The notes beneath the pieces are model-generated. The model was not told where the DNA came from. It saw only the letters and a list, made by a program, of their open reading frames with translations, and searched no databases. A DNA stretch of 64,000 bases from Verrucomicrobium sp. GAS474 (GTDB lineage Bacteria; Verrucomicrobiota; Verrucomicrobiia; Methylacidiphilales; GAS474). The stretch covers positions 2,542,001-2,606,000 of the forward strand of contig NZ_LT629781.1 of NCBI RefSeq assembly GCF_900105685.1, in the 5' to 3' direction. Shown in pieces: positions 15,402 to 58,978 of the stretch. The position numbers and the translations under genes were made by a program. The number at the start of each line of letters is the position of its first letter. The first letter of the stretch is position 1.

Positions 15402-15476
<75 letters not shown>

Positions 15477-15581
15477 CTTCTTTTACTCTGAGAAGCTGAT
15501 AAATACAGGGTTCCACGGCTTTTCGGGTTTTCGCTCAAAACCTTTTCGACTGGTTTCGACTGCTTACGACAGGAGCTTTTT

Positions 15582-15601: not shown

Positions 15602-15687
15602 AGCGAAAAATCGTCTCTCCCTGATAGAATGGGCCTTCCATTCGATTTCTCGGAAAAGCGGCACTTTCAAAAGCGACCTCTTTCAAG

Positions 15688-19466: not shown

Positions 19467-22400
19467 CTAACGGCCTCTGCCGAGATCCCGGTCGATCTCG
19501 CCGGGGCGGGGAGGAAGGGGCTGCTCCCGCTCGTGGGCGTGGCCGTGGTAGAACCCGAGCTGGGGCGCGCGATCCACCTTCTCGCCACGGTGCGGTTGAG
19601 GGATGACCGCGTCACGGACCTCGCCGAGCACCTTGAGCCCCGCCGAGAGGGACGTCTGCCGCCGATCCGAGAAGAGCGACAGGACGCGGCCCGCCATCGT
19701 GACGCCCCTGATGAGCTTCTCGATGCGATTGCCCTTGCCCGTAACGGGGCGCGATGCCTTTGCGTGCTCCGCCTGCAGCTTCGCGATCTTCTTCTCGAGC
19801 GCCTCCCTCTTGTCCATCTCCCGTTCCAGCATCTTCAGGCGATTGATGTCCCGAACGAGACGACGGTGCTTCGGCGCCTTCTGCGACGGTGGGAGCTTCT
19901 TGTAGGCTTCGACCTCCTTCTCGACCTCCGGTGCGAGGGCTTTGAACTCCTTCTCCGCCATCCGAAGCCTGTGGTGTTCGTTCATGAGCTCGCGGGCGCT
20001 CAACCGCGTCGCCGTCTGCGTGACCCAGTCATTGAGACCGTGTTCGTCGCCCTTGCCTTCCAGCGAAGGGGTGTAGATCCACACGTCCGTCCGGTGCCGC
20101 GTCGACGAAACGTAGAACGCGTTTCGCGTTAGGGCCTTGCTCCGATAGCCATAAGCCATGAAGGCCGCATCAACGGTTCGCCCCTGGGAGGCGTGAGAGG
20201 TAAAGGCGTAGCCGTGCTCGAAGGTCCTGAAGGTCGGGGGAATCCTCAGCTCCTTGGTCTTCCCTTCGCGGCGCATCCAGATCGTCCCGTCCGCCTCGAC
20301 CCGACTGACGATGCCCACCATACCGTTCCGCAGGCCGAGCTCCTTGTCCTGCGCGCGAATCCAGAGCCGCTCCCCGACCGCGATATTCATCTTCCGCCGC
20401 TCCGAGATCGAGATGCGCTCCGATTGCTTAAGCGTGAAGAGGCCGTAGTCGAATTTCAGGGTCTCGCCCGTGACCATGTTTCGAAGGTCGAGCATCTGCC
20501 CCTCGCGTCCCTCGATCAGCCAGCGTCCCCGTTTCAGCGGGAGATCGTTGCCGTTCACGGTGAGGACGTGGCTGCGTTCCTTCTCGATCCGATTCCAATT
20601 GAGGCGCTCCGCCTTCGTATCCCGCAGGAGCCGCTCCGCCAAGACCGTCACGTCGTCGCCCGACAGGACGCCCCGCCCCCGCAGCTCGTCCCGAACGTAG
20701 CTCGTGACCTCGTCGATCTCCTTCCAGGTCGGCGAGACGATAAGCGCCGAGCGGGGCTTGCCGTTCTCCTTGATCGTCAGGATCGTGTCGACGTAGTGCT
20801 TCGAGAGCGCCGTGTATCGCGCCTCGTTATTCTGTTCCTCGATTACCCGCCCGAGCTTCTTGTAAATCGCGAGCGCCTTTACCGGTTGGTGCGCCGCCGC
20901 GAGTTGCGCCGCCTCCCGCAACTCCTCCGTCTGCTGACGATTGATCTTCTGAAGCTCCGAGATCCTGATCCCCGACTCCTGCTCGAGGATGCGGAGAGCG
21001 TCCCCCGCCGGAACCGAGGTGTGCTGCCGAATATCCCCGACCAGGGCGATCCGACAGCCCTTCTCCTTGCACAGTGCGAGAAGCTGTTCCATGTCCCGCG
21101 CCCCGACGAGGCCCGCCTCGTCGAGAATCACGTAATCGCCCTCGCCGAGGGCTTCCTGAGCCTTCTTGTTCTTGAGGAGCCCCTGCATCGTCCCGGTCCG
21201 AGCGAACGGATCGCCGGGAGCGAGGGACTCGCCCCGGAGATCCTGAACGGCGGTGGCGGAGGGAGCGAAGAGGTGAACCGTCACTCCCGCCTTCGTCAGG
21301 CCGTCGACCGCAGTCAGCAGGGCCGAGCTCTTCCCCGTGCCCGCCAAGCCCCGCAGCACGACGGCGAAGTCCGTCGACTGCCAGAGGTGCCGGACCGCGT
21401 CCCGCTGCTCCGCGGTCAAATCGAACCGGCCGCCGACGTCGCGGGTCGGAATCGGTGTGGAGAGGGAGATAGGGGCGAGCATCGCGCCGAGGCCCTCGCG
21501 CGCCAGGGCGATCATCGAGTTCTCGATCTTGAGCATCTCCAACGTCGTCATGAGAGAGTGCCCTTTGTAGGAGAGGAGCTGTCCCGTCTCCTTCATGATC
21601 ATGATCTCCTCCTTCAGGTGGTCCGCCTCGACCCGACCGATGCTGTTCGCCAAGATCCACGCCACGAGCTCGTGCTCCGAGAAGACGGAATTCCGTTCCG
21701 TAAAGTGAGCGATACCGAGTTGAAGGGCGTGTAGGGGACGAACCTGAGCGTAGGGTTCGAGAGGGCCGCCCGTGGTCGCCATTGTGTAGAGGCGCTCCAA
21801 ATCGCCGCGCTGTTCCGGCGTCAGGCGTTCGAGCTGCCCCTGCCGAATCTCCTCCGGCGTGAAGGGTTTGCCGTCGCGAACCCACTTGCTCTCCCGTGAG
21901 CCGACGACGATGCCCTTCTTTTCCTTCCATGTGAGCTCCCGCTCCAACTCCTCCTCTCGGCGCGCGATCTCAGCCTTGATAAGCTGCCCCCGTTTTGAGA
22001 ACTCCTCGCAGAGCGCCGTCGAGATACCCCGGATCGAGACCTCTCCCTTCGTGTCGACGTCGATTTCCCAGCCGAGCCTCCGAAGTTCGACGGCCAAGAC
22101 GTTGTTGAAGTGAACGCCTGCCCGTTCGAGCGCCCCATCCTTGAACATGAGCCCATTCTCCAGGGCAAACCACTCACCCGTCACCGGGTCGCGGCTCATG
22201 TTCCAAAATATGTTATGGACGTGAAGGTTCGGATCAATGGCTCCATCCACCGGCCGGGCCTCGGCGTGAAGATACGAAGCACCGATGACCTGCCCAGGCA
22301 CCTTGCGGCACGCGCCCCACGTTCCGTCTTGGACCCGGATAGCGGCCTGCGAGATGAGGAACTCCCGCGACTCATTCGCAGCCTTGAGGACAGCCTCCAT

Positions 22401-22742
22401 GATCCGCTTGTCCCCCGCCACCCGGCACGCAATGGAGACGCTCTTATGCGGAGAGCACGTGACGTCGAAGGCGGCCCTTCTGTCTTTGCGCGCCCGCTGG
22501 AAGAGCGGCTTCCCGGTCAACGGGTGGATGCCCTGGCCGAGCTTGCGAAAGGCGTCCGGCGTCAGCCCCGCAGGCCCCAAGAGCTCGCGGCAGAGGTCGC
22601 CGAAGACGCCATGGGTCGGCAAGTGATCGTGCCCTCGGACGGTGCCTTCGATGTGGTAGTCACCGCTAAGGAGGTGATCGACGAGGTACTCTTCCAGGTC
22701 ATCGACGTTCTTGAACCAGACGGCGGGTTTGTAAGCGCTCAT
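19467..22742 (-). CDS. MobF-family conjugative relaxase-helicase (TrwC/TraI-like)
   Basis: A 1091-residue protein that would nick oriT, bind the strand covalently and unwind it. The N-terminal relaxase shows candidate catalytic Tyr20 and Tyr29, the DVTCSPHKSVS strand (93-103) and the three-His metal site (YLHAEARP near 157-164 and DPNLHVHNIF near 170-179). The helicase half has Walker A GLAGTGKS (465-472) and Walker B VILDEAG (538-544), then further SF1 motifs and a C-terminal coiled coil. This is the usual MobF order and length. It starts the minus-strand mobilisation operon. Confidence 0.93.
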   Translation of the reverse strand: MSAYKPAVWFKNVDDLEEYLVDHLLSGDYHIEGTVRGHDHLPTHGVFGDLCRELLGPAGLTPDAFRKLGQGIHPLTGKPLFQRARKDRRAAFDVTCSPHKSVSIACRVAGDKRIMEAVLKAANESREFLISQAAIRVQDGTWGACRKVPGQVIGASYLHAEARPVDGAIDPNLHVHNIFWNMSRDPVTGEWFALENGLMFKDGALERAGVHFNNVLAVELRRLGWEIDVDTKGEVSIRGISTALCEEFSKRGQLIKAEIARREEELERELTWKEKKGIVVGSRESKWVRDGKPFTPEEIRQGQLERLTPEQRGDLERLYTMATTGGPLEPYAQVRPLHALQLGIAHFTERNSVFSEHELVAWILANSIGRVEADHLKEEIMIMKETGQLLSYKGHSLMTTLEMLKIENSMIALAREGLGAMLAPISLSTPIPTRDVGGRFDLTAEQRDAVRHLWQSTDFAVVLRGLAGTGKSSALLTAVDGLTKAGVTVHLFAPSATAVQDLRGESLAPGDPFARTGTMQGLLKNKKAQEALGEGDYVILDEAGLVGARDMEQLLALCKEKGCRIALVGDIRQHTSVPAGDALRILEQESGIRISELQKINRQQTEELREAAQLAAAHQPVKALAIYKKLGRVIEEQNNEARYTALSKHYVDTILTIKENGKPRSALIVSPTWKEIDEVTSYVRDELRGRGVLSGDDVTVLAERLLRDTKAERLNWNRIEKERSHVLTVNGNDLPLKRGRWLIEGREGQMLDLRNMVTGETLKFDYGLFTLKQSERISISERRKMNIAVGERLWIRAQDKELGLRNGMVGIVSRVEADGTIWMRREGKTKELRIPPTFRTFEHGYAFTSHASQGRTVDAAFMAYGYRSKALTRNAFYVSSTRHRTDVWIYTPSLEGKGDEHGLNDWVTQTATRLSARELMNEHHRLRMAEKEFKALAPEVEKEVEAYKKLPPSQKAPKHRRLVRDINRLKMLEREMDKREALEKKIAKLQAEHAKASRPVTGKGNRIEKLIRGVTMAGRVLSLFSDRRQTSLSAGLKVLGEVRDAVIPQPHRGEKVDRAPQLGFYHGHAHEREQPLPPRPGEIDRDLGRGR

Positions 22743-24434: not shown

Positions 24435-24691
24435 TTCCGAATCGCCCCGAACATTTTTTTACCCTCTCAGTAGGTATAAATCATTTCTTATCGGTTCCCC
24501 TAGGTTCTTAGACGAAATTATAGTAACATCCCATTTCAAGCTGCCATTCCGGGTGTGCGCCGTTCATCGGGCCTCTCTTAATTGGAATCAAGCAGTGACA
24601 CCAGCGGAGCGCAGGTTGCGCTTACGGCCCACGAGGCTGAACCGCCGGGACCCATGAGGTCTTGAGGGTGTCTTTCGCAAGAAAGACATCC
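24435..24691 (+). other. Intergenic region with a hairpin abutting the next start codon
   Basis: No gene is seen. An AGCGCAGGTTGCGCT hairpin lies near 24609-24623. At 24666-24691 an 11-bp stem with a GCAA tetraloop (GGTGTCTTTC / GAAAGACATCC) ends directly before the ATG at 24692 and would bring the GAGG at 24664-24667 close to it. This could be a translational control structure, or the true start could be the TTG at 24662. Confidence 0.4.
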
Positions 24692-24964
24692 ATGACGACC
24701 CGGTCCCACAAAATCAAAGCCGTCGAGAGCGAACCCGCTCTCCTCCTCCCCACCAGTTCCGTCCTCCTTCTCCTCGGCCGAGCCCACACGTGCTTCGTCG
24801 ACTGCAAGGCGGCTGGCTGGATCGCGCCCGCCTATGGCGGGCACGGCAAAGGCAACAGCGGGTATTACCACCGCGCCGACGTCCACGCACTTGCCGAGCG
24901 CCTCCGTCGCGACGGACCGCCTCCTAAACGCACCAAAGGCAGCGGCTCCTCCAAGCCTGCCTGA
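24692..24964 (+). CDS. Winged-helix (excisionase/MerR-like) protein
   Basis: A 90-residue protein with an excisionase-type wHTH: LLGRAHTCFVDCKAAGWIAP, a Gly-rich wing and YYHRADVHALAERLRR. Proteins like this bind DNA as excision or replication accessory factors. A related arrangement (AGWI... then YRSRDVEALLDRY) occurs in the wHTH protein at 56772-57137, so the element has two such proteins. It may control the transfer operon or excision. The start could instead be the TTG at 24662. Confidence 0.6.
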   Translation: MTTRSHKIKAVESEPALLLPTSSVLLLLGRAHTCFVDCKAAGWIAPAYGGHGKGNSGYYHRADVHALAERLRRDGPPPKRTKGSGSSKPA

Positions 24965-25000: not shown

Positions 25001-25909
25001 ATGACCGAAGAAAGCAATCAGAACGAAGCCTCCACCGACAACTCCACGATCGAGCACGTCCTCGTCGTCACTGACGCCCCGAAGGGCGGCGTGGGGAAGT
25101 CCGAATTCACAAACCACCTCACTTCGACGTTCCGCGCCATCGGCCTAGACACCTACATCGGGTACGACACGGACGGCAAGGCGCGGGTCTCGAAGGACCG
25201 CGACGACCGCTTCCGGTTGATCGACGTGACCGCCCTGAATGACAAGGACGCCGTCACCGAGCTCTCCCAGATGCTGGGGGCGCTGGGAACGGCTCCCGTC
25301 GTCGTGGTCGATCCCATGGCGCACCACGAGGCGCTCCTCCGCGATCTCTTCGAGAGGCAGCACGTCTTCGACCTCCGGCTGCCGAAGGTCAACGGCGCAG
25401 CCACGATCCTCGTATTCCCCGGCAGCGATGCCGACACGGTGTCCCAGGCCGCCGACGCCGTGAACTACTACCGGCGCAACCACTGCGGCCGGGACCACCG
25501 GGACGTGCGGATCGTGGCGGTCCTGAACGGCCATCTCAGCAAGGGCTTCGAGTTCTGGCAGGGGATCGAGGAGTCGGAACTGGTCGACGCCACCGTTGTC
25601 CTCCCGCAGCTCTCCCAGAAGGTTCGGGACGAGATCATCGTGGCTGCCCAGGAGATGGGGCGCCCGGCGCGCTTCGACGAGCTGATCCGCTCCGAGGACC
25701 CGATCCTCTCGCTGACGGCGCGGATGTTCACGGAGGACTACGTGCTGGGGGTGCGTCGCCAGATCCTCCGGAACGCCCACTTCTTCATGCCGACGGACCT
25801 CGCCGAGCAGGTCATGAAGGCCGTCCCCGCCGAGCCCACGCCCGCCGAGGTCCGCACCGGCTCGCAGATCCGGGGCTCCGTGAAGTTCGCCAAAAAGGAG
25901 CGGATCTAA
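25001..25909 (+). CDS. ParA/VirC1-like ATPase
   Basis: A 302-residue protein with the deviant Walker A KGGVGKS (28-34) of the ParA/MinD family, a switch region (VVVVDPMAHH near 103-112) and the expected alpha/beta fold. In conjugative systems such ATPases (VirC1, TraL) bring the relaxosome to the coupling protein at the membrane. Here it lies upstream of the coupling-like ATPase and is coupled by TAATG to a tail-anchored partner, which fits that role. A partition role for the replicating element is an alternative. Confidence 0.78.
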   Translation: MTEESNQNEASTDNSTIEHVLVVTDAPKGGVGKSEFTNHLTSTFRAIGLDTYIGYDTDGKARVSKDRDDRFRLIDVTALNDKDAVTELSQMLGALGTAPVVVVDPMAHHEALLRDLFERQHVFDLRLPKVNGAATILVFPGSDADTVSQAADAVNYYRRNHCGRDHRDVRIVAVLNGHLSKGFEFWQGIEESELVDATVVLPQLSQKVRDEIIVAAQEMGRPARFDELIRSEDPILSLTARMFTEDYVLGVRRQILRNAHFFMPTDLAEQVMKAVPAEPTPAEVRTGSQIRGSVKFAKKERI

Positions 25910-26649: not shown

Positions 26650-28512
26650 ATGAAGCTCATTCACCTCCTCCAGAAGCTGGTCCAGTCCGTCCTCGATCTC
26701 TTTGATGGTCGCCCTCGCGCCGAGAAGGAGTGGCGCGCCAAGAACCCCGACTATCCCGACAACCTCCCGTTCCCGTTGACCGATGACGGCACGGCCCTCC
26801 TCCCGCGAACCCGTGTCCTCCGGAACACGAGATCGAGCGGTTACTCGGTAGTCGAGTTCCCGGAGGACGTCCCGCTCGGTTGGCGGCCGCCGAAGGGCTG
26901 GAAGATCGTCGCTGCCGAGATGCTCAACGCCGAAGACCACGGGGCCGTTCGGGTTCCAGGGCAACGCCTTGAGTCCTATCCGATGGACATGGCGCTCTTC
27001 AACTGGGACGGCACGCCGTTGGCCTTCGGCGCGAACAAGACAGCAATGCTCATTCAGCATCTCTTCGAGAACATCTTCGCCTGGGGGAAAACGGGTTCCG
27101 GCAAGACCTCCGGTACCGGACGGCGCGTCTGGGGCTCCTGCTGCCGCTTCGGTCTCGGCCTTCTCGGTCTGGCCGTTAAAATGGACGAGCCCGCAGAACT
27201 CCTCCGGCAGGCTTTGGCCGAAGGACGGCAGCTCCGTCCCAATAAAGTCGAGGACCAACGACCCAACGACATCCGGATGTTCGGGCCGGACCATGGCGAA
27301 CGCTTCAACTTCGCCTCCTATCATGGCTTCCTGACGAACCGGATGGGCACGACTGCCGAGACGGTCGAGGTCCTCAATACGATCATTGGGATCGCGAAGG
27401 GGAATAGCGCCGATGTGTCGAAGCACGATTTCTGGGCCGAGCAACGTGGGCTGATGCTACAGAACGCGATCGACATTGTCCGCCACCGTCCCCACGGCGA
27501 GATCAAGCTCGAGGAGATCATGCAGTTGATCGATGCCGCGCCCACGAAGGCTGGCGTCGTCAATCGGGAGTCGGTCCTCGATCGGTGGGGTGTTGAGGCT
27601 CTGCAGCACGTCTGCACCTCGGAAGAGCTCCGTCGCCGCTTCGAGGGCGAGGTGCTGGCAGCTCGACGCTACTGGCAGGAAACCTACCCGAGCATGGAGG
27701 CCAAGACGCGTAATGACTGCCTCGCCACCATCCGCGGTTTCGTCGACGGGATGAACCGGCAGCCCATTCGCGACCTCTTCTGCACGACCACCACCGTCAC
27801 GCCGAACGACATCTTCGATGGCGCTGTCGTGATCATCGACATGCCGGTCCACGCGGACCGAGCCACCAACGTCCTCGCGAACGCAATCTGGAAGGTCATG
27901 ACCCAGTACGGCGCCATGCAGAGGAAGATGCCGGTGAAGAAGGAGGAGCGGGACAAGGTGCTTCCCTGCCTGATCTATGCCGACGAGGCCCACTTCCTTG
28001 CCGCAGAGAAGGACAGCGAGTACCTCAGCGTGATGCGGTCCTACCGCGTCGGGACGTGCTTCCTGAGCCAGAACGCCCCCGAATATCGCCGTCACCTCGG
28101 TGGCGGGAAGGACGGGGTCGACCGAATGCTGGGGCTGCTCGGCAACTGCGGAACGACGATCCTTCACGCCAACAGCTGCAGCGAGACCTACCGCATCTAC
28201 AACGAGCAGTTCGGCAACGAGATCGCCTGGATGAAGGGCGAGAGCATGGGCTTCTCGTTGGGCGGCCTCGTCGGCGGCCTTACCGGTGATGGAGACAAGG
28301 GTGCCATCGGCGCCCTCGAGGGCGTCAATGTCGGGGACAGCCGCAGCCAGCAGATGCAGCCGGTCCTCAAGCAGACGGACATCCTCTCCCTCCGGAACGG
28401 CAGCGACGCTCACGGTGCCATTGCCGACGGCATCTGGATTCACGGCGGTGAGATCCTGCCCAACGGCAAGCCGTGGATGAAGTTCACGATCAACCGTGGC
28501 GACGACTTCTAA
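26650..28512 (+). CDS. Coupling-protein-like (TraD/TrwB-type) ATPase without membrane helices
   Basis: A 620-residue ATPase with Walker A WGKTGSGKT (145-153) and Walker B LIYADEAHFL (441-450), plus VVIIDMPV and a late C-terminal GSDAHGAIADGIWIHGG, matching the T4CP/TraD-TrwB fold that links relaxosome to transfer channel. Unlike typical T4CPs it shows no N-terminal membrane helices. The next two genes encode membrane proteins that could supply the anchor. A VirB4/HerA-type motor is a less likely alternative. Confidence 0.72.
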   Translation: MKLIHLLQKLVQSVLDLFDGRPRAEKEWRAKNPDYPDNLPFPLTDDGTALLPRTRVLRNTRSSGYSVVEFPEDVPLGWRPPKGWKIVAAEMLNAEDHGAVRVPGQRLESYPMDMALFNWDGTPLAFGANKTAMLIQHLFENIFAWGKTGSGKTSGTGRRVWGSCCRFGLGLLGLAVKMDEPAELLRQALAEGRQLRPNKVEDQRPNDIRMFGPDHGERFNFASYHGFLTNRMGTTAETVEVLNTIIGIAKGNSADVSKHDFWAEQRGLMLQNAIDIVRHRPHGEIKLEEIMQLIDAAPTKAGVVNRESVLDRWGVEALQHVCTSEELRRRFEGEVLAARRYWQETYPSMEAKTRNDCLATIRGFVDGMNRQPIRDLFCTTTTVTPNDIFDGAVVIIDMPVHADRATNVLANAIWKVMTQYGAMQRKMPVKKEERDKVLPCLIYADEAHFLAAEKDSEYLSVMRSYRVGTCFLSQNAPEYRRHLGGGKDGVDRMLGLLGNCGTTILHANSCSETYRIYNEQFGNEIAWMKGESMGFSLGGLVGGLTGDGDKGAIGALEGVNVGDSRSQQMQPVLKQTDILSLRNGSDAHGAIADGIWIHGGEILPNGKPWMKFTINRGDDF

Positions 28513-44615: not shown

Positions 44616-44643
44616 TTGACGAGTTCCTTGGTGTTATTATACA
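44616..44643 (+). promoter_or_regulatory. Promoter of the umuD-like gene
   Basis: TTGACG (44616-44621), a 16-bp spacer and TATACA (44638-44643) fit a sigma-70 promoter. The start point would fall near 44650, so the mRNA would begin at or just before the ATG at 44652. No canonical LexA box was recognised. Confidence 0.55.
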
Positions 44644-44651
44644 AGCGAATA

Positions 44652-45020
44652 ATGATACCTGGGCTCCTTGAACTCCCGTTCCTCGTCGCCCAGATCCCTG
44701 CGGGGTTCCCGTCCCCGGCTGATGATTACAGGGAAGAGCCGCTTAATATTCAGCAGCTCGTCACGCGGAACCCGCTTGCCACCTTCTTCGTTCGCGCCCA
44801 TACGCACGCTCTCCCCAGCCGCGGGATCGAACTGGGCGATCTCCTCGTCATCGACCGCTCCCGCACGCCGTCGCCGGGGCAGGTGATCCTCGCCGTCGAG
44901 GACGGAGAGATCCGTCTCCGCGAAATGCCGTCGAGCGGTGAGATCGAGGTGTGGGGCCTCGTCACCTACACGCTCAAGGAACTGACCAACGCGTATGTTC
45001 GCCCTCATCGACTGCAATAA
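44652..45020 (+). CDS. umuD: UmuD-like polymerase V subunit lacking the catalytic dyad
   Basis: A 122-residue S24/UmuD-type protein. It keeps the self-cleavage site (Ala17-Gly18 in [12 protein letters not shown]) and the fold motif GDLLVIDRS. Where UmuD has GDSM with its catalytic Ser, this protein has THAL (Ala53), and the catalytic Lys position aligns to Arg90 in GEIRLREM. It therefore probably cannot cleave itself. It overlaps umuC by 26 bases. The ATG at 44652 is the only fitting start and gives an almost leaderless mRNA. Confidence 0.8.
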
Positions 45021-46236
45021 TTTCTACGCTTCCTGTGAGCGGGTCTTCTCCCCAAAGCTCAACGGGAAGGCTGTCGTTGTCCTCAGCAACAACGACGGAT
45101 GCGTGATTGCCCGTTCCAACGAGGCGAAGGCCCTCGGCGTCGAGATGGGCGCCCCGTTCTTCAAGGAGAGGGAGCGCCTTGAGAAGAACGGCGTTGAGGT
45201 CTTTTCCAGCAACTACGAGCTCTACAGCGACATGTCGCGCCGGGTCATGGGCACCCTTGCCTTGTTCTCGGGGGAGATCGAGGTCTACTCCATCGACGAG
45301 GCGTTTCTTCGCCTCACCTTGGCCCCGGACCGCCTCCGCGATCACGCTACCGAGATCCGGGCGACCGTGAAGCAGTGGACTGGCATTCCCGTATGTGTGG
45401 GAATTGCCACAACAAAGGTCCTAGCCAAGCTCTCCAACCGCTTTGCCAAAAAGAACGCCGGGACCGGTGGGACCCACTTTCAGGCCGCACCCACCGAAGA
45501 GTTCCTCTCTCGCTTCGACGTGGAAGACGTCTGGGGCGTCGGCGGCCGTTGGGGGGAACGGCTGAATGCCGGAGGCATCAAGACGGCGTGGCAGCTTCAC
45601 GAGGCGAACCAGAGCTGGATTCGCGCCGAGTTCGGCGTGGTCCTGCTGCGTATCGTCTACGAGCTCCGGGGCGTCTCCTGCCTTTCGCTTGAGGAAGTGG
45701 CCCAAGACAAGAAGGGCATCGTCTCTTCCCGTTCCTTCTCTCGCTCCGTTACCGACATCGACGAACTCCGGCAAGCGGTCCGCGACTACCTGTCGACCGC
45801 AGCCGAGAAGCTCAGGAGCCAGGCGTCCGTCGCCGGCCGGGTGCAGGTCCATATCCTGACGGCCCGCCACGGCGACAAGCCGAAGTATTCCAACGCCGCC
45901 GAAGGCGAGCTCGACGAGCCGACCGACGACACCGCCACTCTGATCCGCCGCGCCATGCCGCTCCTCGATGCGATCTACCGGGAAGGCTTCGAGTATCGAA
46001 AGGCCGGGGTTTACCTCACCTCGATCTCTCCCGCCTCCCTGATCCAGCGCGACCTCTTCGGCGTGCCCATCGAGAAGAGCGAAAAGCAAAAGACGCTCAT
46101 GGCCGTGATGGACCAGCTCAACCGGAACGGGCGCCGGGTCCACTTCGGGGACGCCGGACGGAAAGGGTGGACGATGAAGCGTGGACGCCGGAGCCAGTCG
46201 TTTACAACGGACTGGAAAGACCTTTTGTCGGTTTAG
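44995..46236 (+). CDS. umuC: Y-family DNA polymerase, UmuC-like
   Basis: A 413-residue translesion polymerase: metal-binding Asp in [17 protein letters not shown], then YSIDEAFL with the second acidic pair, the palm [11 protein letters not shown] region, thumb HhH ([14 protein letters not shown]) and a little-finger domain. With UmuD' it forms polymerase V for damage tolerance. The gene starts inside the umuD-like reading frame. Mobile elements often carry umuDC (rumAB, mucAB). Confidence 0.93.
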
Positions 46237-50329: not shown

Positions 50330-50494
50330 ATGCCCAAAGCAGCACAGAAGCAGAACAAGGAATCCGTCCTCCGAGCCCGCGTCACCCGGCAGATGAAGGA
50401 CGCGTGGAACCACCTCGTCATCGAGAGCGGGGAGAGCGAAGCCTATCACCTCCGCGAAGCCGTGAGGGAGTACTTGGCGAAGGTCTCAAAGTAA
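50330..50494 (+). CDS. Ribbon-helix-helix DNA-binding protein
   Basis: A 54-residue protein with the RHH pattern SVLRARVTRQMKDAWNHLVIESG followed by HLREAVREYLAKV. Such proteins are repressors, often autoregulatory. It lies between a small unknown gene (4 bp gap) and the protease-like gene (14 bp gap) and probably controls them. Confidence 0.7.
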   Translation: MPKAAQKQNKESVLRARVTRQMKDAWNHLVIESGESEAYHLREAVREYLAKVSK

Positions 50495-50508
50495 GAAAAT
50501 CGTCGGCA

Positions 50509-51375
50509 ATGAACTTTCTTGAGCAGACGGGACTCCGTCCATTCGAACCCGAGAGCGACGCCCAAGAATTCGTCGACGTACTGTCGTTGGCAGCGGTCCG
50601 CTTGCGGATGGTTTTTGAAACGGAACGTGAATGCGTTATCCTAGCCATAGGCTCGGGCTGTTTCGTTAAGATCGGGGAAAAAGCCTACCTTTTAACCGCC
50701 CTCCACAATCTCACCGGAAAAGAACCGGACACCGGCAAATACAAGCACTCCAAGGGCGGTGGTCCTAACTTGGTTGTCATGGACGGCGCCTTCGGGACAG
50801 TGGTGGAAAAGCTCTACACGGGAGAGAACTGCCAGTACAACAACTCCCCTCGATTCTATCAGCATAGCGAAGGGCCGACTGTGGATGTGACGTTGCTTCC
50901 GGTCGAATTTCCGGAGCGAGCGACCTGCTACGACGAACTGCTGCTGAGCGATAATCTGCGAGTGAACGCGGTGCCGACTGCAATTTCAGGGCTCTGCTAC
51001 ATCATCGGCTTCCCGCAGGGTCTGGCCCACTATCATCGACAGAAGGTCCTTCCCATCTGGAAGATGGCGCACATCGCCTCCGAGCCAACCTTGAATTTCA
51101 ACGAGGAGCCGCTCTTCCTCGTCGACGCCGTTACGCGCCCCGGCCTGTCAGGCGCTCCGGTCGTCGTGCACAAACAGGTGAAGGGGCAGGCCCGGGAGCA
51201 TCGTCTGCTCGGGATCTACGTCGGGCGGTTCGTGTTCAAACCGGACGCGAACGTGAAGAAGAAGGGAAAAAAGAAAAAGGCTCGTCCCGAGATCGACCCT
51301 GCTGAGTACCTTGGGATAGGCCGGGTGATAAAAACCTACGTGATTCGGCAGATCGCCGATGAAAATAATCTCTAG
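50509..51375 (+). CDS. Trypsin-like serine protease domain protein
   Basis: A 288-residue protein with the chymotrypsin-fold triad visible: His in YLLTALHNL, Asp in TVDVTLLPV and Ser in RPGLSGAPVVV. The last segment is Lys-rich (KKKGKKKKARPE). There is no signal peptide, so it is probably cytoplasmic. Trypsin-like domains without export signals occur in bacterial antiphage systems. It lies after an RHH regulator and before the REase-PIN protein, suggesting one functional cassette. Confidence 0.75.
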   Translation: MNFLEQTGLRPFEPESDAQEFVDVLSLAAVRLRMVFETERECVILAIGSGCFVKIGEKAYLLTALHNLTGKEPDTGKYKHSKGGGPNLVVMDGAFGTVVEKLYTGENCQYNNSPRFYQHSEGPTVDVTLLPVEFPERATCYDELLLSDNLRVNAVPTAISGLCYIIGFPQGLAHYHRQKVLPIWKMAHIASEPTLNFNEEPLFLVDAVTRPGLSGAPVVVHKQVKGQAREHRLLGIYVGRFVFKPDANVKKKGKKKKARPEIDPAEYLGIGRVIKTYVIRQIADENNL

Positions 51376-51479: not shown

Positions 51480-51803
51480 ATGGAAGAAAGTCCCATGTCC
51501 CTATCGGACGAAGAGTGGAACAAGCGGTGCGCCGCTGATTCAAAGCCCGTTGATCTCGTCCTTCCGTTGGCAGAGGTGGAAGGAGGGATGCAGACCGGCT
51601 CCAGGACTATTGTCCTCGAGGGCTATGAGGTCGATAGGCTGCGGGACATTGAGGTTCTCGGCGAAGTGAAGCTTTCGCGCGATCGGGTTGCTACCTTTTA
51701 CCGAGAACAAAATCTAGTCACCTTCCTCGACCGCAGTCAGGAGCCACAGGTCCTACTCGTTCGTCCTACTGCCCTGACCGTCGCGCTGGCGGGCGTTGCC
51801 TGA
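51480..51803 (+). CDS. Small protein upstream of the REase-PIN gene
   Basis: A 107-residue soluble protein (MEESPMSLSDEEWNKRC). Its start could also be the GTG at 51462. It ends 52 bp before the REase-PIN start, same strand. No family recognised. Being small, upstream and co-directional, it could be an inhibitor or partner of the nuclease, but nothing in its sequence shows this. Confidence 0.45.
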   Translation: MEESPMSLSDEEWNKRCAADSKPVDLVLPLAEVEGGMQTGSRTIVLEGYEVDRLRDIEVLGEVKLSRDRVATFYREQNLVTFLDRSQEPQVLLVRPTALTVALAGVA

Positions 51804-51855
51804 CGTCGTGCCACAATGGAATCGACCATCGAGGCGATTTACCTATTCTAGCCTC

Positions 51856-54045
51856 ATGTCGATCCCCGCTGTTCCTCTAGATACTCTAAAGTTGGCACTG
51901 CGGACGCTTTCCGGGGAAGACGGATTCATCTTCGAGGAGTTTGCCAATCAGCTACTCTCGGCGGAGTTTTCTAAGCTGGTGCCGATTGGTGGGATTGGAG
52001 ACGGCGCACGGGATGGGGTGGTCTATTTTCCCGAGGGCCAGCCGTGCGTTTTCATTCAACACTCGGTTACGCCTGCTTTCGTCGGCAAAATCAACAGCAC
52101 CGTCAAAGCCCTCGAAGAGGACGGTCGCACCGTAAAGATTCTGATTTACGGGAGTCCGCATGTCATCACGGCGAAGGCAGATACTCTTACGACGGAACTC
52201 CGAGAGAAGAAGGAGGTCGCCCTTTACATTCGGGACCTCGCTTGGTTTGTCCAATACGCCAATAGCAACGACATTACGCGTGGAGCCTGCCATGCGTTAA
52301 TTGCCAAGATGGTGGGAACGGCCGCTGGCATCAGCACGCTCGTCCACGAAGGGTTACTTTCCGAAGTAGACAAGAGGACGGCGCTGGCTTACCTCGAAGT
52401 TACCGTCGGAAACAAGAGTCCAGGCAAGAACGTCAATCTCGTCTGCCTTGAGGCGATGGTGAAATACGCGATCCGGAATGGAACACCCGACGCCCCGATC
52501 CCGCGTGAGGAGATATATCGAACGGTCGGGTCGTTCATCACAACTGAAGAGTCCCAGCGTTTGCGGGCGCGAATCGATGGCTGTCTTGGGCGTTTTTCAA
52601 AATCCGAGGTCAAACATCACGAAAAGGTAAACGGCGTGCTGGTGGACGGCTTCGCTCCCGAGGTCGCGGGACGAATCGCGAACGAGGCTAGTTTTCGAGC
52701 CTTGGTGCTGATGCAAAGGCGGGTCGATGATTTCGCGCTGGATTGCGTTCGGCACGTTGTGCTGGAGAAGGAGATCGAGTACGACCTCGATGAAGAGGCA
52801 TTTGCCCATGATGCCCGAATCGTGGCCGAAGCCATGCTGTATCGGAAAAGCGAGGCGGCAGCGCGGGCATTGATACCCGGTCCGACGTTGGCGAATCCCA
52901 TTGTCTCGCTGGTGGAGCTGACCACGAAAATCTGCCTCAATGAGGGCCACCTTCTCAAGTCACTCCGAGCAGTAGAGCCCGAGAAGGTCTTGGACATTGT
53001 GCCTTTCGCCGCAGAGCGGCTGCTCAGAAGCGACGAAGGAGAGGTCACAAATTATTTTCGGCACGTTCGGGACAGCTACTTCCTCTACTTTGCGCTTCGG
53101 CAGGCGCCGGATGTCCAGGAGGCCCTCAATAGCGTCATCCGAGGGATGATGTTGATCGTCGATGCCAGTATCATTGTTCCTTGCATGTGCGAGAGGCTGC
53201 TCGAAGATGCAACGGTTGGCCGAATGACCCAACTCCTTAACGCGGCTAAACAGGTAGGAGTAAAGCTGTTCGCCAGCAAGGAAACCATAAACGAACTGAT
53301 TTCCACGATTCATACCGCGAATGCGATCCATCAGTCCTACGCCCGGTTTAAAACACCTTACGATCATTCCGAGTTGGCGAAGGCGTACATTGAAGCTGGA
53401 GCGACGGAGGGCTTCGAGAAATTCCTAGAGCGCTTTTGCGACAAAGACACTCCTGTCGAAGACTTAAAGGAGTTCCTTAAAAGCGTTCTCGGGATTGAGT
53501 TCGACGACTTTGCCGACCAACGTCGGCAACTCGACCATTCCAAGGTAGAGGACCTTGGAAAAATCCTTTTTGATAAGCGGAAGGTGAAAGAAAGCATCGA
53601 CGTAAGGCACATCGAGACGCTGGTAACGAACGATTCCCTCTCCATCCATTTAATCGACATACTTCGGAAGGATGCGATTGTTCGGCCGGGGAAGGGTGAG
53701 GCGTGGTGGTGGATGACCCGCGATTTCACCACGAACAACGTCGATAATCAGACCTTCACGGACGCGGGCCGTAAAGGGCCGGCGACCATGGCGCCTGACT
53801 TCCTCCTGCGGCACCTATCCTTAGCTCAACGGGACGGAAATAAAGCGACGACCTTCACACTACCCACGGCGATTGAGGTATCTGCCCTTGGCTTCATTCC
53901 CGCGGAAGTGATCAAGGCTGTTGACGAGTCTCTCAAGGAGACCGGACGCCTTCCTGTTTACCTTCGAGATCGGAAGATCCGGAAGATGCTGAATCAGGAG
54001 CGCTCCGGCCATACTCCAGCACCTAATCCCGCGGCCGCAGCCTAA
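51856..54045 (+). CDS. Large protein with an N-terminal REase-like domain and a PIN-like domain
   Basis: A 729-residue protein. Residues about 12-130 resemble an Mrr/DUF4297-type endonuclease fold: FEEFANQLL, then GDGARDGVVYF and the FIQHSV strand, a variant of the D-ExK/QxK site. Residues about 435-620 look PIN-like: MLIVDASIIVPCM (first Asp), ETINELIS (Glu) and WWWMTRDFT (late Asp). The middle is helical. Two nuclease-like modules in one chain beside a protease-like gene suggest a defence effector. Start ATG at 51856; an upstream TTG would add a weak extension. Confidence 0.6.
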   Translation: MSIPAVPLDTLKLALRTLSGEDGFIFEEFANQLLSAEFSKLVPIGGIGDGARDGVVYFPEGQPCVFIQHSVTPAFVGKINSTVKALEEDGRTVKILIYGSPHVITAKADTLTTELREKKEVALYIRDLAWFVQYANSNDITRGACHALIAKMVGTAAGISTLVHEGLLSEVDKRTALAYLEVTVGNKSPGKNVNLVCLEAMVKYAIRNGTPDAPIPREEIYRTVGSFITTEESQRLRARIDGCLGRFSKSEVKHHEKVNGVLVDGFAPEVAGRIANEASFRALVLMQRRVDDFALDCVRHVVLEKEIEYDLDEEAFAHDARIVAEAMLYRKSEAAARALIPGPTLANPIVSLVELTTKICLNEGHLLKSLRAVEPEKVLDIVPFAAERLLRSDEGEVTNYFRHVRDSYFLYFALRQAPDVQEALNSVIRGMMLIVDASIIVPCMCERLLEDATVGRMTQLLNAAKQVGVKLFASKETINELISTIHTANAIHQSYARFKTPYDHSELAKAYIEAGATEGFEKFLERFCDKDTPVEDLKEFLKSVLGIEFDDFADQRRQLDHSKVEDLGKILFDKRKVKESIDVRHIETLVTNDSLSIHLIDILRKDAIVRPGKGEAWWWMTRDFTTNNVDNQTFTDAGRKGPATMAPDFLLRHLSLAQRDGNKATTFTLPTAIEVSALGFIPAEVIKAVDESLKETGRLPVYLRDRKIRKMLNQERSGHTPAPNPAAAA

Positions 54046-54094: not shown

Positions 54095-54559
54095 AAGTGC
54101 CGCAAAGTGACGCAGCGATTTGCGGCACATCCGTCAGAGTAAATCCGACCGGTTGCGGCACTTTGCGGCGCATCGCTGCATGGTGTCGAATGTCTATATA
54201 TACCTATAAAAGAAGAGGTTATAATATATATTCAATTCTAAGTGCCGCAGAATTGAGGATTTCCAGAGCCATCGCCAAAAAGGGAAGCAAGCAGAAGGCG
54301 AAGCCGTTCAGGGCCTCTTGGCCCAATGGCCTTTGGGGATGACGTAGCCATTTCTTGGAGCCGAGGGTGTTATAGGGCATTTGCGGCACTTCGCGCCTCA
54401 TCGAGGCTTCGCCTCGCGTTGTAAGCGGCACGACGAAAGGTAGATCGCCCCAGAGGCGATGGGCGTTGGGACCATGCGTTAAAGCGCCGCAAAGTGCCGC
54501 AGCGCCCGATGTCTACTCTGAGCCAAGTGCCGCACCCTGTTTGCGGCACTTGCGGCGGC
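54095..54559. repeat. Iteron array and AT-rich region: probable replication origin
   Basis: The 10-bp word AAGTGCCGCA and its complement TGCGGCACTT occur repeatedly: perfect copies at 54095-54104, 54154-54163, 54240-54249, 54382-54391, 54492-54501, 54525-54534 and 54542-54551, and variants at 54105-54114, 54121-54129, 54163-54172, 54422-54431, 54482-54491 and 54551-54559. A very AT-rich stretch (54191-54240) lies inside the array. This is the layout of an iteron origin. The replication-type gene begins at 56775 and ends at 54616 beside it. Confidence 0.75.
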
Positions 54560-54568
54560 TGCTGGAAT

Positions 54569-54602
54569 GAAAAAGCCCTCCCGTCGCCGGGAGGGCTTTC
54601 GT
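54569..54602 (-). terminator. Rho-independent terminator of the DUF3987 gene
   Basis: Read on minus, AGCCCTCCCGG / CGGGAGGGCT stems are followed by TTTTTC, 14-20 bp after the stop at 54616. Confidence 0.85.
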
Positions 54603-54615
54603 TTGCCAGGAACCG

Positions 54616-56775
54616 TTACCGGCCCACCGTGGCGTAGCGCAGGGCCTTTCCCTGCTTCCGGCTGACGATCCGTCTCCGTGCGACCAGCTCTGCCAGCGAC
54701 GCCCGCAGGTCGTGGCCTTCGATATGGGTGTACTTCGACAGCTCCCGCACCGTCATGCTCCCCCGCTTCTGCAGTTCCTCCATGACCTTGTCCTCCCGCA
54801 CCTTCGCCTCGCCCGCGAGGTAGGGGGCCAGGAGGAACAGTTCCTGCCGTGCCAGCCAGAGCGTCAGCTCGACAGCCGCCTTCGCCGTTTCCACCGACAT
54901 CGTCTTCATGCTGGCCGGGATCGAGCACGAGATCCTCACGGTCGGGCCTGCCTCTTTTGCCGCCTTGGCAAAGGCCGCCATGATGCCCGAATCCTGATGC
55001 AGCAGGTGGAGCAGGAGAGCAATCCGCATCGCCTTCTCCGGCCAGCGGCGCGCGAAGTTGCTCGCCCCGGCGAGGTTGGTCTCGCTCTCGATCTCCGCCT
55101 CGATCCGTGTGCTGAAGGTGCGGAAGACCTCCATAACCTCCTCGCTGCCGATGAGGTCAAGGTACTCGCCCCTCTCCGCCAACCGGTGGCAGAAACGCAG
55201 GAGATCCGTCGAGAAGCCGCTCCAGTTCGCCTGAATCATGGGATCGAGCTCGAGGCCCATCTGCTTGATCCCCTGATCCATGAGGCAGAACTGGAAGCGT
55301 GGCAAGAGGCCGCCCTTCACCGACTCCTCGTTTACGATCTTCCCAGTCTGGTCACTCTGGGTCAGCCAACAAACCGAGAGCCGCGGCTCGTTGACGTTCT
55401 CCTCGTCACGCCCCGCCCGAATCGAGTCGAGGTGGTCGCCACTCCAACCTTGAATGAGGAGCGAGTCGTCAGGGGTGGAGGTCTTCGAGAACAGACCTTT
55501 GAACGTGATGAGCACGATTTTTCGGCCGTCCGTGTGGAAGCCGAAGAGCGACTCGCCCACGGCACCCGACAGCTTCTTTTCGAGGCCGGCGCTGGTGAAG
55601 TCGGTGACGACGAAGTTCGGCTTCCACTTCTCGCGGTGCTTGATCTCCTGGATCTTTTCTTCGACATCCGCGAGAGCCTCATCGAGGCAGGGAGTTGGGG
55701 CGGCGACGGAACCGGCATCCATCTTCGCCTTCCGCCGCATGAGCTTCACGATCTCCTTGTCCTGCTCGAGGGCAGGCATCGCCTTCTTGTCCTTCTTCAC
55801 CTGCTCAGCGTGCTTCGCGATGAGGGAGCTGTTGAACCGCCGAATCGGTTCGCCGATCTCCCCGCCTACGACGCTTTTGCCACCTGCCGAGGGTACAATA
55901 ATGAGCGAGTAGATGTTCGAGTGAGTGTAACCCTTGCCGCGCTTCAGCCGAACCCGCGCGAACGTCGAGCCGCTGACGCAGCTCAATGCCACGAGGAGCG
56001 GCATGATCGGCGGGCAGACGTGGACGCGCTCGTAGTCCCGGACCATCCGCCGCAGGAGGAGCGGCAGGGCACCAGAGGGAAAGGTGGCGTCGTAGTCCGG
56101 GTCGATCAGCGGTGCGGTCCGAACCTGCTGTGCGTTCCGGAGTGCTTCCCCATGGTCGCCGCCGTTGACGAACCCGACGACCCAGATGTCGTTCTGGACC
56201 AGCCTTTTGATGATGGCATCCGCCCACTCGCCATGCTCTTCCGATTTCCAAACGACGGCTTTGTGCTGCGCCGGCTGGATCATGTCGAAGATGTCCACGC
56301 TCTCGGAGACTTCGTCTGGCATTGCGTCCTTCGATCGCCGGACACCGCCACGATCGACGATGACCGTTGCCGGGAACTCGACGGTGGCGGGAAACCCAAG
56401 GACTCCCTCAACCTTGGCCATGACCTGCAGGTAGTGGCGAGCCGACGAGAAGACGTGGATGACCTCAGTGATCGGGAGGTGCCCCACCACTAGGGGAGTC
56501 AGCTTCGTTTTCGGGTAGGTGTACGCCTTGCCCTCCTTGGTCAGGACGTGGAGCGCCACGACCTTACCTTCCTTCTCGATCGGCAGCGCGAGGTTGCCCT
56601 CGTGCGCGCCGAGATGAGGGAACTGCCAGAGCGTATCAGGCGCGACCCCGAGGATCGGTCCGAACGTCTCGCAGATCTCCTCTGTAAGGGAGAGCTTGGC
56701 CTCCTGCCACAGGTCGAGTGGGATGGACGTGGCAGCCCCGGCCGGGCCTGCCACTTTGGCGGGGAGATCGCTCAC
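54616..56775 (-). CDS. DUF3987 replication-type protein
   Basis: A 719-residue protein of the DUF3987 family of primase-helicase-like phage and plasmid replication proteins. It has an N-terminal domain with alpha/beta strands, a P-loop-like VPSAGGKSVV (294-303), and a C-terminal winged helix (TVRELSKYTHIEGHDLRASLAELVARRRIV). It lies beside the iteron array and is overlapped by the wHTH gene (ATGA), so it probably is the element's replication initiator or primase-helicase. Confidence 0.78.
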   Translation of the reverse strand: MSDLPAKVAGPAGAATSIPLDLWQEAKLSLTEEICETFGPILGVAPDTLWQFPHLGAHEGNLALPIEKEGKVVALHVLTKEGKAYTYPKTKLTPLVVGHLPITEVIHVFSSARHYLQVMAKVEGVLGFPATVEFPATVIVDRGGVRRSKDAMPDEVSESVDIFDMIQPAQHKAVVWKSEEHGEWADAIIKRLVQNDIWVVGFVNGGDHGEALRNAQQVRTAPLIDPDYDATFPSGALPLLLRRMVRDYERVHVCPPIMPLLVALSCVSGSTFARVRLKRGKGYTHSNIYSLIIVPSAGGKSVVGGEIGEPIRRFNSSLIAKHAEQVKKDKKAMPALEQDKEIVKLMRRKAKMDAGSVAAPTPCLDEALADVEEKIQEIKHREKWKPNFVVTDFTSAGLEKKLSGAVGESLFGFHTDGRKIVLITFKGLFSKTSTPDDSLLIQGWSGDHLDSIRAGRDEENVNEPRLSVCWLTQSDQTGKIVNEESVKGGLLPRFQFCLMDQGIKQMGLELDPMIQANWSGFSTDLLRFCHRLAERGEYLDLIGSEEVMEVFRTFSTRIEAEIESETNLAGASNFARRWPEKAMRIALLLHLLHQDSGIMAAFAKAAKEAGPTVRISCSIPASMKTMSVETAKAAVELTLWLARQELFLLAPYLAGEAKVREDKVMEELQKRGSMTVRELSKYTHIEGHDLRASLAELVARRRIVSRKQGKALRYATVGR

Positions 56776-57137
56776 GCAGCCTCCTGCTGGGCGACATTTT
56801 CATCGGCGCGGCGACGGCGCCTTCTCGGTGCCGGTCGCTCGTATTCGACTTCGCAGCGGAGGGGTGGGGGGCGCAGACCTTGGTCATAGCGATCTAGAAG
56901 AGCTTCGACGTCCCGCGACCTGTAGAGCGCCTTCGCCCGGGGACCCTGTCCGGACGCTCTCGTGATCCATCCTGCCTCTTCGCAGCGGCGGAGGTCTTTT
57001 TCTTTCCCAATCTTACCGACAACTTCGGCGCGGGGAACCATCCGACGGGTGAGGTGTCGGACGACCTCGGCGCCGATACGATTAACTACCTCTTCGACGA
57101 TCTTCTCGATGTCGACTTCTGAATTGCGCGAAGGCAT
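56772..57137 (-). CDS. wHTH protein paired with DUF3987
   Basis: A 121-residue protein with an N-terminal coiled segment (DIEKIVEEVVNRIGAEVVRHL), a wHTH-like core (LRRCEEAGWITRASGQGPRAKALYRSRDVEALLDRY) and an Arg-rich tail (PRRRRRRAD). It overlaps DUF3987 by four bases, implying coupled expression. It may be an iteron-binding initiator or an excisionase. The core resembles that of the small wHTH protein at 24692-24964. Confidence 0.62.
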   Translation of the reverse strand: MPSRNSEVDIEKIVEEVVNRIGAEVVRHLTRRMVPRAEVVGKIGKEKDLRRCEEAGWITRASGQGPRAKALYRSRDVEALLDRYDQGLRPPPLRCEVEYERPAPRRRRRRADENVAQQEAA

Positions 57138-57159: not shown

Positions 57160-57400
57160 GATTGGAAGGTCTCGGCGGTTCAAGCGCCGGCGCGGCCCGT
57201 CGCAGGGGCAAATTCCTGCGATTTAACACCTCGTCGCCGAGGGGGACTACTGCCTAAGACCTAGATCTACAACGGACGTTCCCAGTTTCGTAGGGCTCTC
57301 AGTCCTCGTGGATCGAGAGCAAGCAGAGGGACGTAGCCCCCGGCAAACACGGCAAGTACAAGCCAGTTGATGGGCGGACTCTACCCGAAACGAAATACCT
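57160..57400. ncRNA. Candidate structured leader between integrase and replication genes
   Basis: The 299-bp gap 57138-57436 lacks genes but has nested stems: AGGTCT 57167-57172 with AGACCT 57257-57262, CTCGGCG 57171-57177 with CGCCGAG 57235-57241, TCGCAGG 57200-57206 with CCTGCGA 57215-57221; and a second unit with GCTCTC 57295-57300/GAGAGC 57315-57320 inside ACGT-CCC 57276-57283/GGGACGT 57328-57334. It lies upstream of the wHTH-DUF3987 operon (minus). It could be a leader, an antisense copy-control RNA or a single-strand origin. Confidence 0.5.
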
Positions 57401-57436
57401 TGTCAATAACGGTCTCGACAGGTCGCGACACAATCC

Positions 57437-58876
57437 CTATTTGGCCGCCGATCTCTCCTTTTTGCCAGGAAGGATAGCCCAGTACGCCTGCCAGACCGGC
57501 TCCTTAACGACTGTCCGATAGTGCTTCAAAATGACGTCGGGACTATTGCCCATCATCGCCGCCGTCCGCGCCTCATCGGACGTAGCTGCGAGAAAGTACG
57601 TGCCGAAGGAGTGCCGGATGGGATTGCGGGGCCAGACCTTGAGCACTGTGCCGTCCTTCTCCTTAGCTTCCTTCGCTTGTTCTGGGGTGAAGAAGCCCGC
57701 GGCCTCGCGTGCCTTCTCAAAGTGAGACCGCCAGGGCGTCGGCGCCACGAGCCCAACGCGCTCTTCTTCCGGGACGAGATCGAGCCAAGCCTTCAGGGTC
57801 GCGTGAATCGCGATCATCCGGTTCTTCCGGGTCTTCGCGATCCGCGCTGAGACCTGAATCTCCTTGTCGCCGACGGCCGCCCAGTCGAGCTGTTGGATCT
57901 CGCTGGAGCGGAGCCCGGCGAAGAGACCCAACGCGGTCGCCGTTCGGATGGGTCCGTCGCTCTTGGTGAGGAGGTCGGCTGCCTCTTCGGGGGTGAGGAT
58001 CGCGCAATCGGCATCGTAGTCGATGCGGGGAATGTCGATGGCGGGGTCGACGCCGACATAACCGTCGCGCTTTGCCCAAGCGAAGAACGCTTTCAGGTTG
58101 CGAAGATGGTGAGCTTGGCTTCCCCGGGTCCAAGCGTCCTCGTCGATCCAGTCGGAAACATCGTCCTTCTGGATCTCGTGGACTTTGGCGCGCGGATGGT
58201 CGGTGAAGAAGTTCCGGATGGTCCCGGAGTAGTCCTTCCTCGAGTTGGGGAGGAGGGGGGCTGGGCGAGGGTCATCCAAGAATAGGGCGAGGGCGGCCTC
58301 CCAACCAATCACCCCCTTGGAGGGACGGCCCAGCTTGATGCCGTCCTCCACCGCCTGAGTGAGTGTAAGACCCGGGAACTGCTTGATCCTGCCGAAGGCG
58401 AGGGCGGCTTCGTTGAGCTGGGCCGGTTCGAGGCGCGTCGCGGTGATCTGGTCCCGCTTCGAATACTGCTCCCATGCCCAGCGACGAGCCTCCTCCTTGT
58501 GTTTGAAGTCCTTCAGGATCGCCCGGCTCTTCTTCTTGTTCTTGGGCAGGGCATTGGCGGGGTTGCCCCGGTTCGGCGAGGTCGTTGGTAAAAAGGGAAT
58601 CTGAACGTCCGGCCGCGCAGCTACGAGGTAGTTCAGGATGCCGCCGGGGAGGGGGACGACTTCCGCCTCCATCGTAGGGACCGGCGCCTCATCCCGGCTA
58701 CCGATGATTCCGAGGAAGCGTTCGCCCAAACGAACGCGCCACGTGACGCTGCCATTGCCTCCCTCGTTCTTGCCCAGCCCGACGCCCGGGGGAAGACCCT
58801 TGGGGATCTCGACGTTGGACGGATCACCGTCGAGAAACACCTCACGAAGGGTCTTCTTTTTGGTCAGGGCGCGCAT
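57437..58876 (-). CDS. Tyrosine site-specific integrase
   Basis: A 479-residue recombinase. Residues 40-65 resemble an arm-binding N-terminal domain, followed by a SAM-like core-binding domain (about 190-275) and a catalytic domain: Arg323 in FAGLRSSEIQ, Arg421-His422 in NPIRHSFGT, and Tyr453 in KHYRT. The first His of the HxxR motif is Asn418 and the GH motif is GN (Asn443). It lies 54 bp from attR and is the likely integrase. Integration into tRNA-Lys follows from the repeats. Confidence 0.9.
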   Translation of the reverse strand: MRALTKKKTLREVFLDGDPSNVEIPKGLPPGVGLGKNEGGNGSVTWRVRLGERFLGIIGSRDEAPVPTMEAEVVPLPGGILNYLVAARPDVQIPFLPTTSPNRGNPANALPKNKKKSRAILKDFKHKEEARRWAWEQYSKRDQITATRLEPAQLNEAALAFGRIKQFPGLTLTQAVEDGIKLGRPSKGVIGWEAALALFLDDPRPAPLLPNSRKDYSGTIRNFFTDHPRAKVHEIQKDDVSDWIDEDAWTRGSQAHHLRNLKAFFAWAKRDGYVGVDPAIDIPRIDYDADCAILTPEEAADLLTKSDGPIRTATALGLFAGLRSSEIQQLDWAAVGDKEIQVSARIAKTRKNRMIAIHATLKAWLDLVPEEERVGLVAPTPWRSHFEKAREAAGFFTPEQAKEAKEKDGTVLKVWPRNPIRHSFGTYFLAATSDEARTAAMMGNSPDVILKHYRTVVKEPVWQAYWAILPGKKERSAAK

Positions 58877-58905: not shown

Positions 58906-58930
58906 TACTGCAACACCAGAGTAAAAGGTA

Positions 58931-58978
58931 TGACTCTTAATCAATTGGTTGTAGGTTCAAGTCCTACTCGCGGCACTT
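58931..58978 (+). repeat. attR core repeat
   Basis: Identical to 15429-15476. It includes the tRNA-Lys 3' half only, with no acceptor 5' strand or D arm, so it is not a functional tRNA. Beyond it, chromosomal sequence resumes. Confidence 0.95.

Follow-up and report, generated by a model that had tools for sequence, protein, structure and literature searches.

A window of 64,000 nucleotides from Verrucomicrobium sp. GAS474 contains a dense array of short repeats directly behind a gene for a DUF3987 protein. What does this array do, and which protein reads it? The best explanation for the whole, to which a probability of roughly 0.7 is given, is that 54095-54551 is the origin of a mobilizable element and is bound by a winged helix at the C-terminus of the DUF3987 protein.

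The array itself is real. A scan of the window found seven exact copies of AAGTGCCGCA in 54095-54551, four on the forward and three on the reverse strand, and four near copies, which confirms the original prediction of at least seven perfect copies and several variants. By chance, 0.07 exact copies would be expected per 64 kb, and seven were reached in no shuffle; in 2000 dinucleotide shuffles of the 570-bp array region the highest count of any 10-mer was three. Genome-wide (3.76 Mb) the exact repeat is found 15 times, with seven copies in the array and eight as lone scattered copies. In three places the repeats form head-to-tail pairs whose partners are exactly 10 bp apart (Table 1). Copies lie on both sides of a 50-bp AT-rich stretch, as had been predicted, and their orientations are mixed on each side; within the window, the 80% AT of this stretch is equalled solely at 23332. 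The array starts 65 bp downstream of the DUF3987 stop codon, and the interval is occupied by a terminator-like GC-rich hairpin with a T-run, which is absent from the terminator-scan results. No DnaA box was found in the array (within one mismatch) or beside it, and no RNA family was found at the array. Close to its other side, at a distance of about 50 bp, ends the gene for a 749-aa protein of no known family (51796-54045).

The 719-aa protein encoded next to the array has DUF3987 (PF13148) as its sole Pfam match, with an E value of 8e-41 and 140.8 bits against a gathering cut-off of 27; DUF927 and D5/Primase_Cterm were not assigned. Neither this protein nor its 121-aa neighbour has a Pfam match to Rep_3 or RPA-type initiators. 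The protein belongs by similarity to a phage DNA helicase family (phrog_2373), its C-terminal part also matches phrog_630, and its Walker A motif looks degenerate. In the AlphaFold2 model the mean pLDDT is 42 and the helicase core is of low confidence; the last 60 residues reach a pLDDT of 79-91 and follow the order helix-helix-helix-wing. When the C-terminus was compared with the PDB by Foldseek, winged-helix proteins were matched (E 0.02-0.1), and a resemblance to the plasmid centromere binder AspA was given a probability of 1.00. From this model a C-terminal winged helix is predicted. Searches of genome contigs, viral contigs, plasmids, and phages gave no close relatives of the protein, and a sequence search returned no solved structure for it. 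Its relatives within the phylum are about 22-30% identical and lack conserved stretches sufficient for alignment-based scans. DUF3987 has been predicted to be a mobile-element helicase (PMC5862659), and two open-access passages on DUF3987 make no link between the domain and iterons.

A second candidate reader is the 121-aa protein, whose gene shares 4 bp with the start of DUF3987. The original prediction of a DUF3987 gene overlapping a winged-helix gene stood as regards the domain and the overlap; the small protein appears winged-helix-like on its sequence pattern only. It has no Pfam match, a search for HTH_17/AlpA (PF12728) gave nothing up to an E value of 5, and its single-sequence model is poor (pLDDT 50). 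A paralogue at 24662-24964 (33% identity, E 6e-7) heads the ParA/T4CP gene set. At another locus (L080) the protein in the equivalent position is an HTH_17 protein (PF12728, E 1.3e-10) whose gene also overlaps DUF3987, and BLASTP detected no similarity between the two. No iteron copy is present in the promoter region of the 121-aa gene or in that of its paralogue's gene set. Because the repeat is absent at both, a regulator or excision factor fits better, and the 121-aa protein is probably one of these rather than the repeat reader. Either protein had been proposed as the initiator; DUF3987 is still plausible in this role, and the small protein, with no repeats in its own promoter region, is not favoured as reader of the repeat.

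Table 1. Features of the element in the window, and repeats directly downstream of DUF3987 genes at other loci.
Feature	Position	Strand	Remark
attL, 3' end of tRNA-Lys(CTT)	15429..15476	+	48-bp perfect direct repeat
TTTTACTCTG just inside attL	15481..15490	+	possible recombinase arm site
MOBF relaxase-helicase	19467..22742	-	TrwC type, E 1.7e-40
ParA-like P-loop protein	25001..25909	+	sequence motif KGGVGKSEFTNHL only
Coupling-protein-like (T4CP-like) ATPase	26650..28512	+	
Exact AAGTGCCGCA copies	54095, 54240, 54492, 54525	+	
Exact AAGTGCCGCA copies	54154, 54382, 54542	-	
Near copies of AAGTGCCGCA	54105, 54482	+	1 mismatch each
Near copy of AAGTGCCGCA	54121	-	1 mismatch
Near copy of AAGTGCCGCA	54164	-	2 mismatches
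Head-to-tail iteron pair	54095..54114	+	10-bp register, 54095/54105
Head-to-tail iteron pair	54154..54173	-	10-bp register, 54154/54164
Head-to-tail iteron pair	54482..54501	+	10-bp register, 54482/54492
att-arm motif copy in array	54134..54144	-	1 mismatch
AT-rich stretch, putative unwinding element	54188..54237		50 bp, 80% AT, inside array
att-arm motif copy in array	54511..54521	+	2 mismatches
Terminator-like GC-rich hairpin and T-run	54556..54615		inverted repeat, between DUF3987 stop and array
DUF3987 (PF13148) helicase-like protein, putative initiator	54616..56775	-	719 aa; Pfam, phrog_2373
Predicted C-terminal winged helix of DUF3987 protein, putative iteron reader	54619..54810	-	about residues 656-719
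Small winged-helix-like protein, putative regulator or excision factor	56772..57137	-	121 aa
Sigma-70-like promoter ahead of small gene and DUF3987 gene	57378..57406	-	consensus match only
Tyrosine integrase	57437..58876	-	
TTTTACTCTG just inside attR	58917..58926	-	inverted; possible recombinase arm site
attR	58931..58978	+	second copy of 48-bp repeat
Downstream repeat, L085			CGATTCCC
Downstream repeat, L080			GGGAACAA
Downstream repeat, L084			CGCTGACA
Downstream repeat, L173			CGGCGAAA, two inverted sets
Downstream repeat, L145			GGTTAGAA x10
Downstream repeat, L146			TCTAACAA x10
Downstream repeat, L141			GTCCGACA x9

The array and both genes lie inside a region of 43.5 kb bounded by a duplication of the tRNA-Lys end, and the 48-bp repeat has exactly two copies in the genome and no third. 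No T4SS family was matched among the ORFs scanned, which were part of all ORFs and included several large ones without a family. With the att repeats, the integrase, the MOBF relaxase, and the T4CP-like ATPase, the region is best classed as an integrative mobilizable element. Its transfer is likely to proceed by conjugative mobilisation rather than phage packaging, because a relaxase (and a T4CP-like gene) is present. Among the ORFs scanned, no packaging or hijacking genes like those of phage satellites stood out. Plasmids carrying distant counterparts of both the relaxase and the ATPase are known from Planctomycetes bacterium K2D and Runella sp. SP2. The ParA-like protein has no Pfam match. 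An AT-rich intergenic stretch between divergent mobilisation genes (23300-23560, with 80% AT near 23332) is a candidate oriT. As cargo the element carries a UmuD/UmuC-like pair (44616-46236); it also encodes a two-partner-secretion-domain protein and a trypsin-like protein (50404-51375) matching the PADLOC candidate defence family PDC-S45 (E 6.5e-15).

The integrase has no relatives in the genome-contig collection, and its matches in other genomes reach about 37% identity at most. Beside a match from the same genus (L208), the neighbouring genes match neither DUF3987 nor the other element proteins tested. At two loci from the same taxonomic order, L211 (G034) and L209 (G033), a related integrase occurs with a MOBF relaxase; these may be sister elements that use a different replication module. 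In G007 a modA-like homologue adjoins the tRNA-Lys, matching the left side of the element, but the contig stops short of the right side; the tRNA-Lys neighbourhood of G006 has a different arrangement. Since these two give no empty-site proof, the integration history rests on the 48-bp duplication. Of the excisable replicating element that had been proposed, an origin-like array in an element made excisable-looking by its att duplication was borne out; excision and replication themselves are inferred.

If the array serves the DUF3987 protein, similar arrays might be expected behind other genes of the family, and a search for the same repeat had been suggested as a check. AAGTGCCGCA itself is absent from the closest relatives (22-30% identical), but arrays of other sequences are present, and the absence of the identical repeat, named beforehand as grounds for rejection, does not apply in the form in which it was worded. 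For the survey, a family or protein search supplied DUF3987 genes from further genomes of this phylum and class, one gene was kept per 60%-identity cluster, and the window itself was left out. Repeated 8-mers on both strands were scored in the 620 bp at the 3' end of each gene against dinucleotide shuffles, with at least 4 copies and a z of at least 4 counted as positive. In the genomes alone, a repeat cluster lies directly downstream of DUF3987 at 12 of 39 non-redundant loci; upstream the count is 1 of 37 (Fisher p 0.0015), and behind the remaining genes at these loci it is 5 of 236 (Fisher p 5e-8); the thresholds were fixed after the first results, and these p-values are a guide. With viral contigs added the counts became 20/56 downstream, 1/54 upstream, and 8/300 behind other genes, in a set biased by query genes that were picked for having arrays. 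The array sequence differs at each positive locus (Table 1), often with both orientations and an AT-rich stretch nearby, and a repeat register of about 8-12 bp is common. Some positives are weak or of doubtful kind: the CGACAAACC repeats of L057 (5664-5922) fall for the most part in the 5' coding end of an adjacent DNA polymerase gene and translate as GLSGLS-like and NPTNPT-like stretches, and those of L073 and L175 are one-sided. About two thirds of the DUF3987 loci, mostly encoding shorter proteins, have no array at the survey threshold, and the closest relative (L124) has none in the first 560 bp downstream of its DUF3987 gene.

Among the viral loci, one pair indicates which part of the protein would read the repeat. 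L100 and L102 have helicase cores that are 95% identical, C-terminal parts that are 72% identical, and strongly divergent downstream regions, where the repeat GGGAAT of L100 is replaced by GTGAAT in L102 at 5 of the 6 aligned origin sites. Between L100 and L103/L104 the cores are 83% and the C-terminal parts 84% identical, and the repeat is unchanged. Because C-terminus and repeat change together in the first comparison and both stay closer in the second, this comparison of sequences points to the winged helix at the C-terminus of DUF3987, and not to the separate small protein, as the likely iteron reader. With near-identical cores and a switched C-terminal domain and repeat, the phage-type loci L100 and L102 amount to a natural specificity swap.

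A mechanism can be proposed on this basis. The integrase would excise the element by recombining its two 48-bp tRNA-Lys repeats with each other. The C-terminal winged helix of the DUF3987 protein would then bind the iterons and assemble on both arms of the array, and the protein would open the AT-rich stretch between them and serve as a self-loading replicative helicase, as is thought for SaPI Rep and SCCmec Cch2. Thus, 54095-54551 would act as the vegetative replication origin after excision, with the overlapping small protein as a probable regulator or excision factor of the module.

Motifs common to the array and the att ends allow a different account, in which the array is bound by the recombination machinery, either as a relict att of a smaller, ancestral DUF3987-HTH-integrase element or as a switch between excision and replication. 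The iteron 9-mer GCGGCACTT is present at the end of the att core and at 15658, and TTTTACTCTG, found inside both att sites, recurs twice in the array with one or two mismatches. Similarly, at L053 (3384-3715) and L181 (8008-8560) a tRNA or tRNA-like att sequence beside DUF3987 has repeats on both sides. However, one-mismatch iteron matches outside the array are near chance, at about 3 expected per 64 kb, and the motif comparisons were made after the fact; they hint at a connection of excision with replication and do not amount to a finding. Moreover, 4.4 kb separate the array from the nearest att site, the array does not adjoin the integrase gene, the viral DUF3987 arrays have no integrase beside them in the stretches read, and the viral repeats change with the DUF3987 C-terminus. 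Control by recombination proteins is therefore considered unlikely.

Less probable again is that the array is an operator or a parS-like partition site, used by the small winged-helix protein or its ParA-side paralogue. Repeat arrays near ParA systems can be centromeres, and each of the two gene sets, DUF3987 and ParA/T4CP, begins with the gene for a small winged-helix protein. The promoter regions of both sets lack the repeat; the array follows the DUF3987 gene and is some 29 kb away from the ParA-like gene, and the recurrence of arrays behind DUF3987 genes without such a neighbour would be left unaccounted for. That the repeats are a non-origin family or regulatory noise, placed behind the gene by chance, is very improbable given their concentration at the array, with the 8 single copies elsewhere, and the recurrence of the same position in unrelated lineages.

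An origin bound by the DUF3987 protein would have wider consequences. DUF3987, a common domain in phages and islands, is still listed as being of 'unknown function'. Should the layout hold, DUF3987 proteins would have a defined role as origin-binding initiator helicases, a rule would place the origin in the first few hundred bases downstream of DUF3987, and pairs of the L100/L102 type would become ready specificity-swap systems. The presence of the layout, with different repeats, behind about a third of the distant relatives surveyed makes the role of the family testable. The odds seem about even that long-type DUF3987 proteins are widespread self-loading initiator helicases that read iterons in phages, satellites, and conjugative islands, in which winged helix and downstream origin evolve as a unit, with the present element possibly having an excision switch in its origin. 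If true, this is a mobilizable island that replicates with a satellite-type origin.

How does such an origin compare with known replicons? In classical iteron plasmids, iterons of about 17-22 bp are repeated directly, all in one orientation, and a DnaA box is present. A plasmid of this kind (RepA/Pi/TrfA type) is ruled out here by 10-bp repeats in both orientations and no DnaA box; of the plasmid design originally predicted, the origin-like array holds, and the design of SaPI Rep and SCCmec Cch2 fits instead. In satellite P4, the alpha protein is a helicase initiator whose short binding repeats occur in both orientations next to an AT-rich stretch, and it is a primase-helicase of another family than DUF3987. 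Unlike P4, the present element shows no second, crr-like array. The Sulfolobus plasmid pRN1 is similar in that a small repressor gene and a replication protein share one operon and the origin region, which is essential, comes directly after it, behind a putative terminator, but its origin is a long stem-loop and not an iteron array (PMC4234260). The PICMI satellites combine an integrase, an HTH_17/AlpA protein, and a replication gene, 'prim', modelled with DUF3987 and DUF5906 and involved in satellite replication (PMC10803314). Deletion of this DUF3987-model gene is described there as giving fewer circular or concatemeric copies (PMC10803314). In contrast to the element here, the PICMIs are 6-kb phage satellites of Vibrionaceae without a relaxase, and iterons did not turn up when the paper's text was searched (PMC10803314).

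SGI1, a replicative mobilizable island, carries an HTH_17 gene (S004), rep, and an iteron oriV in that order (PMC7433901). The likeness covers an integrative mobilizable lifestyle, an HTH gene (putative here), a rep gene, and an iteron origin immediately downstream, and SGI1 replicates once excised, as is proposed for the present element. SGI1 differs in having four 17-bp direct repeats and a putative DnaA box, compared with 10-bp repeats in both orientations, no DnaA box, and a putative initiator of helicase type in the present element. In SaPIs, the iterons have opposite orientations and flank an AT-rich stretch. Oppositely oriented repeats around an AT-rich stretch are likewise found here, although in mixed sets. 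SaPI Rep and SCCmec Cch2 of Staphylococcus are initiator helicases with a C-terminal DNA-binding domain, which reads the iterons directly downstream (PMC7581432). The present locus shares with them an integrated element, short repeats directly downstream of a helicase gene, and a predicted C-terminal DNA-binding domain, here on a DUF3987 helicase rather than one with DUF927 or D5/Primase_Cterm. Another difference is its relaxase and T4CP-like gene, with which conjugative mobilisation is likely in place of phage packaging. By analogy, the replicon of the array would work like the SaPI/SCCmec type, not as a member of it.
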